Source of the DNA: Roseibaca sp. Y0-43
GTDB lineage: Bacteria > Pseudomonadota > Alphaproteobacteria > Rhodobacterales > Rhodobacteraceae
Assembly (NCBI RefSeq): GCF_020667835.1
Contig: NZ_JAFMPR010000002.1
Coordinates: forward strand, 310,001 to 374,000
Length of the DNA: 64,000 nt
Direction: 5' to 3'
A program made the translations under genes and the position numbers. The notes under the pieces are model-generated. The model was not told where the DNA came from, did not search any database, and saw only the letters and a program-made list of their open reading frames with translations. Shown one piece after another: positions 13,542-25,219 of the stretch. Numbering within the stretch: position 1 is the first letter of the stretch; every line of letters starts with the position of its first letter.

Positions 13542-14533
13542 GCGGCTTGCGCCACAGCGCCAAGCGCCTGTTCCAGCAAGTCCGGCCCCGCGCCGGGCTT
13601 GTGCGCGTTCTCGGACAGCACGCGCCGCCACTGCCGCGCGCCGGGCTGGCCTGCGAACAGCCCCAGCATGTGCCGGGTGATCTGCGCCAGGCGGGCGCCT
13701 TGGGTCATCTGCGCCTCGATATAGGGCAGCATATTCGCGACCACATCGGCACGGGTCTGCGCAGGTTGCGCCAGCCCAAAGACGCGCGCATCGGCCTGGG
13801 CCAGAATATCCCACGGGCGATGATAGGCGGCGCGGCCCACCATCACGCCGTCCAGCCCCGTGTCCAGCAGCCCGATCACGCTGTCCAGATCGTCTATCCC
13901 GCCATTGAGCGAGATGTGCATGTCGGGAAATTTCGCCTTCATCGCCATGACCAGCGGGTAATCGAGCGGGGGAATATCGCGGTTTTCCTTGGGGCTTAGC
14001 CCTTGCAGCCACGCCTTGCGCGCATGGATCGTCACGCGCCGCACGCCCGCGTCGCGGATCGCGGCCAGAAAGCGCGGCAGGATCTCGGCAGGTACTTGGT
14101 CGTCGACGCCGATACGGCATTTCACAGTGACCTCTGCCGGGCTGGCCGCGATCATGGCCGCGCAAATCTCGGCCACCAGTTCGGGCCGCTCCATCAACAC
14201 CGCACCGAAACTGCCCGATTGCACGCGGTCGGACGGGCAGCCGCAATTGAGGTTGATCTCGGGATAGCCCGCCTCATGCCCCAGCCGCGCGGCCTGCGCC
14301 AACTCTGCCGGGTCCGATCCGCCAAGCTGCAACGCCACCGGATGCTCGCGCGGATCATGTGCCAGCAGGTGCAACGCCCCGCCGCGCACCAAGGCGGGGG
14401 CCGTCACCATTTCGGTGTAAAGCAACGCCTGCCCGCTGATCTGGCGGTGAAAAAACCGGCAATGCCGGTCGGTCCAATCCATCATGGGCGCAACGGACAG
14501 GCGCGCGGCCTTGTTGGTCGCGGTGCATGGCAT
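13538..14533 (-). CDS. dusA: tRNA-dihydrouridine(20/20a) synthase DusA
   Basis: Flavoenzyme reducing uridine in the tRNA D-loop. 331 aa, full length. RLSVAPMMDWTDRHCRFF at the N-terminus, NLNCGCPSDRVQSG (catalytic Cys), KCRIGVD, THARKAWL-type (TIHARKAWLQGLSPKENR) and NGGIDDL are all DusA-specific. GGAG lies 8 nt upstream of ATG. The first 17 codons are matched (43 of 52 bases) by a displaced copy at 25168-25219, so this 5' end was probably supplied by an integrated element. The encoded protein looks intact. Confidence 0.95.
   Translation of the reverse strand: MPCTATNKAARLSVAPMMDWTDRHCRFFHRQISGQALLYTEMVTAPALVRGGALHLLAHDPREHPVALQLGGSDPAELAQAARLGHEAGYPEINLNCGCPSDRVQSGSFGAVLMERPELVAEICAAMIAASPAEVTVKCRIGVDDQVPAEILPRFLAAIRDAGVRRVTIHARKAWLQGLSPKENRDIPPLDYPLVMAMKAKFPDMHISLNGGIDDLDSVIGLLDTGLDGVMVGRAAYHRPWDILAQADARVFGLAQPAQTRADVVANMLPYIEAQMTQGARLAQITRHMLGLFAGQPGARQWRRVLSENAHKPGAGPDLLEQALGAVAQAA
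14482..14493 (+). repeat. Left attachment-site-like repeat inside dusA codons 14-17
   Basis: TCATGGGCGCAA, identical to 25168-25179 in the same orientation, and lying in the part of dusA (SVAPMMD) known as the target of dusA-specific integrases. Similarity continues 40 bp to the start codon at 31 of 40 bases and stops sharply on the other side. Confidence 0.65.
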
Positions 14534-14826
14534 TCAGAGATCTCCTAGGGCCCAACTGTATCGGGGCGGACCTATCGAGCGTAACATATACCCACATGAT
14601 TAGCGGTCTGCCACCCTGCCCAGTGCAAAGACGGGCAAACGGCCGCGGCTAGACCGGTTTCGTGTAAAGTTGAACCGATCGACGGCAGCGACCGCCTTTG
14701 AGAGCCCCGGTCAGTCTGCATCGCCGTGTTCCAAGCGCCGCATAAACCCGAAGGGCTTCGGTTCCGGCTGTATAAAGCTCAGTACAAAGACAGCTTGCTG
14801 TCAACAGCCCAACCCGGTGCAGAACC
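14534..14826. other. Non-coding stretch between dusA and the AraC-GAF gene
   Basis: No supportable gene. It must hold the present dusA promoter, supplied by the island. It contains GTGTAAAGTTGAACC (14661-14675), resembling GTGTAAAAGTGAACC at 21222-21236, a motif type found at insertion-sequence ends. A small hairpin CCGAAGGGCTTCGG near 14748 could end the AraC-GAF transcript, but no T-run is evident. Confidence 0.5.
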
Positions 14827-15807
14827 TCAAATGAAGCCTGACAAACCAAGCCCGCCACTGCGGCGTTCCGTCTCCAGTTGTCCGACGGTCGCGAAAGAGA
14901 GAGCGGAAGCGAGTGCCACATCGTGCAGGTCGAAGGCATTCTTGATGTCACTCTCGAAATTGATCGCGCCGACGACGTCGCCCCCAATAATGAGGGGAAC
15001 GCACAGTTCGGAGCGGGTCGAGGCGTCGAGCGCTGCGTAATCCGTCACAAGATCCAGATCGTTCTCAATGCGTGAATCGCCCTTTTGAAGAACCGAATGC
15101 ACGATGCCTCTGGCCGAAGTAAGAACCGAATTCACGCGGTTCATATCCACGCGAAAGCGCGCATCATCCATGCCACCGCGGTAATGCGAGTAAACCAGCG
15201 CGCTGCCTTCAAGTCCTCTTTTCAGGATGACAGCGCCTCGCTTGTAATGCTGGCGTCTTCTCAGGATGTCATGCACCCTGTCGAAAGCCGCGAAAATGTC
15301 AGAGCTTTCGACGATAATCTGGCCACATTCGATGCTGACCATCGCCTTCTTGTCGGACGAAGGGCGAGGATGTCCATGTCCCGCCGCAGTCCCCTGCCCC
15401 GACCCTGTCGAGATCGCAGGATGCGTGCCCCTTTTCTGTGCGGCCCGAAGTTTCAAGGACGCCTTCAACGTTTCGGAGGGAGCTTCTCCGAATGCTTCGC
15501 CGTAATGCCGCGCAAAGCGGCCAAGATGGTCCAGCCCGTTGTCATGGGCGACCGATGTCACGCTGGTTCCATCATCGGCCGCAAGAAGCGCCGCGCGTGC
15601 GCGCCGCAGACGCAACTGGAGCAACCAAGCCCCAGGCGTTGTGTCGAGACACTCGCGAAAAGCTTTTTGCAGTGCCCGGACCCCCACACCGGCGGCCTGC
15701 GCGGCCAAGGCGGGAGGGGTGTCCTGATCGTAATGGCGGCTAAGATATTCGGTGGCTATCCCGACGATCCTCTCTTGAGTGCCTTCCGCTGCATTTCTGT
15801 GTGTCAC
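14827..15807 (-). CDS. AraC-type regulator with a C-terminal GAF domain
   Basis: 326 aa. Residues about 10-115 form an AraC/XylS double helix-turn-helix: PALAAQAAGVGVRALQKAFRECLDTTPGAWLLQLRLRRAR and VAHDNGLDHLGRFARHYGEAFGEAPS. The rest is GAF-like (TRSELCVPLIIGGDVVGAINFESD near 270-295). AraC domains are usually C-terminal, so the order is reversed. It is divergent from the serine hydrolase across 341 bp containing tandem 8-bp repeats 22 bp apart, which suits an AraC-type site. The ligand is unknown. Confidence 0.83.
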   Translation of the reverse strand: MTHRNAAEGTQERIVGIATEYLSRHYDQDTPPALAAQAAGVGVRALQKAFRECLDTTPGAWLLQLRLRRARAALLAADDGTSVTSVAHDNGLDHLGRFARHYGEAFGEAPSETLKASLKLRAAQKRGTHPAISTGSGQGTAAGHGHPRPSSDKKAMVSIECGQIIVESSDIFAAFDRVHDILRRRQHYKRGAVILKRGLEGSALVYSHYRGGMDDARFRVDMNRVNSVLTSARGIVHSVLQKGDSRIENDLDLVTDYAALDASTRSELCVPLIIGGDVVGAINFESDIKNAFDLHDVALASALSFATVGQLETERRSGGLGLSGFI

Positions 15808-15871
15808 GGCCCAATCCAGTCCGTTGGCGAGTAAACCCCTTTATGGCACCGATACCCTCAAAACGCGCGCA

Positions 15872-15901
15872 ATCTGGATACTACCCGTTCGCGATCTGGA
15901 T
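15872..15901 (+). promoter_or_regulatory. Candidate AraC-type operator (tandem ATCTGGAT, 22 bp apart)
   Basis: ATCTGGAT occurs at 15872-15879 and 15894-15901, two helical turns apart, in the divergent intergenic region 65 bp upstream of the AraC-GAF start. Tandem direct repeats with this spacing are typical of AraC-family sites. The rest of the 15808-16148 gap shows nothing else recognisable. Confidence 0.4.
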
Positions 15902-16148
15902 TGCGAGACGCAGATTTCTGACGAATCCTGAGCAGGTTCAGTGTGATTTAAGACTGTATTTCACGGACAAAGCTTGCGCAGGCCGTCATCGCGTCACGAG
16001 CATGCGCTCGCGTCCTACGTCATGCTTCAGGGCACGGGGTTATAGCGAAGAGGGATCGGCAAACCATGCTCAGTAGCGCCAAGGGCACCCGATTGATATG
16101 CGCGAGGACCGGCACCGTTTTGGCCGATCCAGCGGCAAGGAAACGTCC

Positions 16149-24961: not shown

Positions 24962-24967
24962 GACAAT

Positions 24968-24994
24968 GCGCCTGCGGGAGACCGCAGGCGCTTT
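24968..24994 (+). terminator. Intrinsic terminator of the HupE operon
   Basis: Perfect 10-bp stem GCGCCTGCGG / CCGCAGGCGC with loop GAGA and TTT, 6 nt after the stop codon. Confidence 0.8.
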
Positions 24995-25167
24995 GCCTAA
25001 GCCCGAGCGTGATCGGGTTTCAGCGTTCCAGAACGCCGTGCACGGATGTTTTGCGAGCCATCGCAGAAACGGCGAGAGACCACGGAATCACGCGATCAAA
25101 ACACGCATACGGGCCACCCAAAAAAACGCGTAACTCTTTGCAATACCGAAATAATCTTCGCCCTCTG

Positions 25168-25179
25168 TCATGGGCGCAA
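25168..25179 (+). repeat. Right attachment-site-like repeat
   Basis: TCATGGGCGCAA, identical and in the same orientation as 14482-14493, at the island-proximal edge of the dusA fragment. Confidence 0.65.
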
Positions 25180-25219
25180 TGGACAGGCACGCCGCCTTCG
25201 TGGTCGCGATCCTTGGCGT
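25168..25219 (-). pseudogene. dusA: Displaced 5' fragment of dusA (old start of the gene)
   Basis: Read on the minus strand it encodes ATTKAACLSIAPM, matching ATNKAARLSVAPM of the intact DusA; 43 of 52 bases agree and there are no gaps. The start codon position is ACG, and a GGAGAGA element like the dusA RBS sits just upstream. Similarity stops abruptly at 25168. This is what remains when an element inserts in dusA and provides a replacement 5' end. Confidence 0.8.

Follow-up and report, generated by a model that had tools for sequence, protein, structure and literature searches.

Genomic islands specific to dusA have been described in which dusA-associated integrases target the conserved 5' region of the gene (Farrugia et al. 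2015, PMC4482086), and IMEVchUSA3 and other dusA-targeting elements of Vibrio are described as disrupting dusA upon insertion while supplying a new promoter and N-terminal part, the latter as long as the original (PMC8409611). Islands of the dusA-specific class are further characterized by a tyrosine integrase adjacent to dusA and by excision as a circle, with dusA restored. The locus analyzed here resembles those islands in its 5' site, in an old 5' end lying at the far side, in a dusA that regains a start, and in its variable cargo, while it differs from them in that no integrase was found, the old core is broken, both gene starts are of host type, and the present start is doubtfully the element's own. 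With the Vibrio elements (PMC8409611), it shares insertion at dusA and a supplied promoter and N-terminal part of the same length, but those elements possess an integrase, RdfN, and mobilisation genes, none of which was seen here in the scanned proteins. A literature search of limited reach retrieved no work combining dusA, genomic islands, and Rhodobacteraceae. The locus is a known kind of event that has left a somewhat unusual remnant.

The analysis was carried out on a stretch of 64,000 nucleotides of Roseibaca sp. Y0-43 (genome G000; 3.03 Mb in 54 contigs), namely, positions 310001 to 374000 of contig C22, referred to here as the window. Its intact dusA (13538-14533, minus strand) encodes a tRNA-dihydrouridine synthase A of 331 amino acids (Pfam Dus, PF01207, E 4.4e-77). 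An initial annotation had claimed a 10.7 kb genomic island inserted in the 5' end of this gene, with the original gene start still present, and the repeated start on which that claim was built is real. An ungapped alignment of 25168-25219 with 14482-14533, covering codons 1-17 of dusA together with its ribosome-binding site, gives 43 identical positions out of 52, both copies lying on the minus strand. This displaced and decayed start, called the ghost hereafter, has ACG replacing ATG and retains a GGAGA ribosome-binding site, and its similarity to dusA stops within the attachment core, at a shared 12-mer. The second-best site for the dusA-start 52-mer on either strand of the window reaches 30/52, and 200 random 52-mers taken from the window as a control gave top matches of 26-35. 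The 12-base portion of the core common to both copies, TTGCGCCCATGA (TCATGGGCGCAA on the plus strand), lies in dusA at 14482-14493 (minus strand), the position occupied by the cores of displaced starts in relatives; with up to one mismatch allowed, it occurs in the window solely at 14482 and 25168, although by itself it is weak evidence, 0.70 occurrences being expected. Beyond these bases, dusA continues with TGGATTGGAC, and the core of the ghost is broken after ATGA. The attachment repeats, which in the literature are semi-conserved 21 bp sequences at both ends, therefore amount here to 12 identical bases with divergence past ATGA, and the 21-base dusA core is found in the window only within dusA, even with up to three mismatches allowed. 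Six-frame motif and core searches revealed no third, outer dusA fragment in the window.

The two starts also share a promoter box (TTGCAC, 0-3 bases, GG, 1-3 bases, AGGG), located at 14614-14628 for dusA and at 25296-25313 (minus strand) upstream of the ghost, with no third site in the window. The distance from the box, which in the ghost reads TTGCAC..GGGGCAGGG, to the core is 128 bases in dusA and 124 in the ghost, compared with 127 in locus L013 and 116 at the displaced start of genome G444, and these two are the only other distinct 5' regions among those tested in which the exact box occurs. Chance would place 0.13 such boxes in a window (30 simulated windows), a figure that is too favourable because the pattern was drawn up after the ghost had been seen. 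The initial annotation further held the present dusA start and promoter to be element-derived, and on this point the comparison goes the other way: both look host-type and not the element's own. The region 14486-14643 (minus strand), containing the box and the gene start, was aligned by blastn with L083 (1e-16) and the displaced start of G444 (2e-12), as well as with L057, L013, and L220, and 14603-14643 emerged unprompted as a blastn match to the G444 displaced start (E 5.7e-7) across all fetched loci, among the matches listed. A promoter model was built from six host-type promoters with the coding part and ribosome-binding site excluded (L013, which equals L025, together with L057, L058, L083, L220, and the G444 ghost, these being all of its strong hits outside the own genome), and 14559-14645 fits these dusA promoters of other genomes at E 9.3e-10. 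Leave-one-out testing recovers five of the six (L013, 2.7e-10; L057, 9.6e-6; L083, 1.2e-14; L220, 1.8e-6; G444, 1e-8), with L058 failing at 3.7, and three loci with host-position starts (L085, L086, and L093) remain below significance. The model is matched neither by any of the integrase-flanked loci, 26 of them distinct, nor by any of six paired islands described below, a split between promoter type and integrase presence that is not significant (Fisher p 0.32).

The ghost start would likewise be of host type, although as a whole it does not match the model significantly (E 2.6 among the set of loci and E 16 within the window), its box alone being significant. In a comparison with 120 other 5' ends, the present start and the ghost are mutually nearest (0.81) across the 48 bases directly preceding the core, the runner-up standing at 0.79 for the present start and 0.71 for the ghost; across 66 bases including the ribosome-binding site, L083 (0.77) and not the ghost (0.71) is the closer to the present start. 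Both copies start 16 codons ahead of a conserved Met-Met, as do nine other distinct loci. Eight of these nine host-position loci have enough upstream DNA to be assessed, seven being without an integrase hit and one (L087) with a hit, and at L220 the upstream DNA spans just 113 bases, in which an integrase could not show. A conserved promoter block of about 158 bases, of the 14486-14643 type, is present upstream of dusA in several Rhodobacteraceae without a dusA integrase, and among eight distinct host-type dusA loci elsewhere, no two have upstream neighbours that agree with a score of at least 90 bits. In G444, a HupE gene (49%) and a weak anchor-protein relative (32%) lie upstream of the displaced start, which could be coincidence.

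The DNA between the two starts carries an AraC-type regulator with a GAF domain (14827-15807, minus strand; PF12833, PF13185), a PF00144-family serine hydrolase (16098-17385, plus strand) whose frame is apparently split (16098-16865 and 16546-17385) and whose second part, which gave the family in a domain scan, has NCBIfam scores far under the curated cut-offs, a small unknown protein (17462-17755) and an SH3-domain protein (18081-18983) on the plus strand, and a TAP-like alpha/beta hydrolase (19118-21148, plus strand; PF00561, PF08386). These are followed by a five-gene metal module (21385-24961) composed of an MFS gene and a CsoR-type repressor on the minus strand and a His-rich protein, a HupE/UreJ protein, and a transmembrane anchor protein on the plus strand. 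Comparison genomes were taken at one per species, giving a genus set of 37 including the own genome and a family set of 394. The TAP-like hydrolase gene was found in 1 of 37 genus genomes, the own one, and in 17 of 394 family genomes including the own at E<=1e-30 (best other, 45%), while 23570-24298 was found in 4 of 37 genus genomes including the own, two of the other three matching well (74-75%) and the third weakly (29%). The metal module occurs, whole or partial, on Rhodobacterales plasmids, including conjugative ones, at 68-82% DNA identity among the matches listed. The cargo thus appears to be accessory and partly plasmid-type. No mobility genes were seen among the scanned proteins, and none of the seven PF00589 integrase hits of the genome falls on contig C22, which bears out the earlier statement that the island lacks an integrase; one would have been lost at some earlier time. 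Nor did a decayed integrase turn up: a home-made integrase model gave a best E of 1.1 in the window.

In relatives, the 3' DNA of dusA is common to at least 11 others in 76 of 90 loci (a few loci counted twice), whereas its 5' DNA is common to at most 3 others in 69 of the 90, some of which have little upstream DNA. In the remaining 21 loci, the 5' DNA is common to 9-15 others, and all 21 carry a dusA-type integrase. The home-made integrase profile places such an integrase in 28 of 97 loci (26 of 91 distinct), the first-listed hit per locus lying no more than 837 bases from the core on the strand opposite dusA, and in seven congeners a contig breaks at dusA codons 7-17. For the Rhodobacteraceae, the region 5' of dusA is a hotspot of insertion.

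Displaced starts were sought with the core in 15 genus genomes and, with a pattern omitting intact dusA, in the 394 family genomes, where 33 matches were obtained; the 30 that were read were judged to comprise 21 displaced starts, 4 dusA genes, and 5 chance matches, and together with those of G060 and G012, the displaced starts in relatives number 23. The DNA beyond 14 of the 23 was examined, and the dusA end was found for 6 and not for 8 in the fetched stretches. These six paired islands have 1.4-38 kb between displaced start and dusA, in the same layout as in the window: an integrase lies beside dusA in G060 (19.5 kb), G209 (28.1 kb, with a hit spanning two overlapping frames), and G387 (37.9 kb), an integrase fragment remains in G412 (10.6 kb), and no integrase hit was obtained in G290 (35.7 kb), whose start is G+C-rich and sits at the host position, or in G354 (1.4 kb). 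Since three of the six are without a full-length integrase and their lengths run from 1.4 to 38 kb, integrase loss is not rare and 10.7 kb is within range. The cores of the 23 genuine distal ends extend through ATGATGGA, whereas the ghost core halts at ATGA, a comparison in which 21 of the 23 ends were gathered with a pattern requiring ATGATGGA, so that decayed ones would escape. Identity at the core wobble bases was considered as evidence of strand exchange and discarded, three of the six paired islands differing there.

Two side observations concern the elements of the relatives themselves. Near-identical A+T-rich dusA starts of the MQINQHARLSCAP type, compared over the 85 bases upstream of the core, are present at six loci from several genera, all six accompanied by a dusA-type integrase, and apparently represent one widely spread element family. 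The displaced starts of G060 (C4:1070579, L161) and G012 (C40:46987, L155; its dusA is on another contig) are themselves element-type, which suggests that a later island displaced a start supplied by an earlier one.

On the island side of the ghost, an A+T-rich stretch (25116-25160) resembles the ends of real dusA islands. The 40 bases at core +20 to +60 have an A+T fraction of 0.65 against a window mean of 0.36, a value reached by 0.1% of window 40-mers, and genuine island ends lie at 0.55-0.80 in 23 of 23; such A+T-rich clusters number six in the window, five others besides this one. A position model gave the island side of the ghost a score of -3.5, under all genuine ends (-1.7 to 16.5) and weakly above an A+T-matched background, 4.5% of which reaches that score. 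A likeness of this end to that of G012 (AGATWATTTC) was a by-eye impression that the position model did not support, and it was set aside.

With a probability of about 0.6, we favour an insertion that took place long ago at the attachment core of dusA, the likeliest mechanism being site-specific recombination as carried out by dusA integrases, a reading that starts from the direct-orientation repeat, its end inside the core, the box in both copies, the accessory cargo, and the hotspot behaviour, all of which are observed. In such an event, 10.7 kb would have entered at the dusA core, and the then-current 5' end, with its promoter, ribosome-binding site, start, and codons 1-17, would have been pushed to the far side to decay there, while the dusA body would have been left with another functional-looking start and promoter. 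The integrase responsible would have been lost or have acted from elsewhere, and the incoming DNA would have borne a host-type dusA start, or the start would later have been replaced by recombination with a relative.

Recombination that needs no integrase is the strongest competitor, at a clearly lower probability: DNA of a related strain, consisting of the cargo with its own dusA promoter and 5' end, could have recombined at dusA through homology at one end and a chance join at the other, or a circle bearing part of dusA could have entered by a single crossover. Such an event would leave two host-type starts, and both starts are host-type with the box; the missing integrase and the incomplete ghost core also accord with it. 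It leaves unexplained why the old copy ends inside a short attachment core and why the island end is A+T-rich, and the dusA 5' side is a hotspot of integrases.

Two facts fit an ordinary island poorly and count against the favoured reading: both starts are of host type, the present one in contrast to the 5' ends of the six paired islands, and the ghost core is short. They could mean that a host start was carried in, through mobilisation in trans or homologous recombination, or was later restored from a relative. A tentative and rather improbable form of the former is a passenger island, in which the dusA integrase of a different element, using a poor second site, cut out chromosomal DNA beside a host-type dusA start (cargo, promoter, and codons 1-17) as a circle, which then inserted into the dusA of another cell. 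Cis-mobilizable elements carry attachment sites at their flanks and no integrase of their own, a layout that the island in the window would share. If the passenger reading is true, an integrase of its own was not needed, and dusA would stay under a host promoter, unlike in ordinary dusA islands.

The full version put forward by the initial annotation, in which an ordinary dusA island has provided the present beginning of dusA from its own 5' end and has lost its integrase, is unlikely. The islands of G290, G354, and G412 demonstrate that ordinary islands without a full-length integrase exist, and the start of G290 is even G+C-rich at the host position, but the present promoter fits those of hosts, and no integrase-flanked locus or paired island does so. 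What endures of that proposal is an insertion beyond which an older 5' end remains, carrying accessory cargo and no longer an integrase; its account of the present start and promoter is not supported.

The accessory DNA does continue past 25.2 kb. The neighbours on the 3' side of dusA are conserved in G015, G019, and G025, and on the right, homology to G015 sets in at about 31.48 kb (at 31492 by tblastx and at 31631 by blastn) with a xylulokinase and polyol operon followed by an ispH/DUF3429 block. Between the ghost and this flank lie two large genes of unknown function on the plus strand (25473-29315 and 29317-31395), the first of which is accessory by the genus genome search, in which 25503-29315 gave, beyond the own genome, one weak match (24%, E 2e-4) in 36 other genomes. 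The accessory tract would therefore span some 17 kb (14.65-31.48 kb), of which the 10.7 kb between the starts forms the inner portion and within which the ghost marks an internal boundary. The first large gene has a relative, 34% identical, on a haloarchaeal plasmid, where the next gene is annotated as a pre-toxin TG domain protein, and replicons of Sinorhizobium and Ciceribacter carry further relatives; for the second gene, a match to Ntox4 stayed below threshold.

No empty dusA site for the tract was found among the genomes compared, one per species. G019, where dusA abuts DUF3429, at first pointed to an insertion of 35 kb (14.5-49.5 kb) and was rejected as an empty site: it is rearranged, because ispH and DUF3429 adjoin, no more than 2 kb apart, in 16 of the 17 congeners having both (20 searched). 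The order of four blocks is P A B C in the window genome versus P(inverted) B(inverted) A C in G019, and by a hand count three inversions convert one into the other. From about -60 kb to 50 kb, the contig differs from G019 contig C10 by several inversions, with a breakpoint at the dusA 5' end. That a chromosome rearrangement formed the tract and left the ghost as a relic of a second dusA locus is very improbable, for although local gene order is unstable and the G019 breakpoint falls at the dusA 5' end, a single inversion does not yield two copies in direct orientation, and the dusA-DUF3429 junction of G019 looks derived.

The locus adds a fossil-stage example to a described class of insertions, and its conserved promoter block is suggested as a feature that may help distinguish dusA starts of host type from those of element type. 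Should islands be able to carry host-type starts, dusA integrases may spread cargo that has no integrase. In the family, the dusA 5' side has been repeatedly turned over, and many dusA starts are probably non-ancestral.
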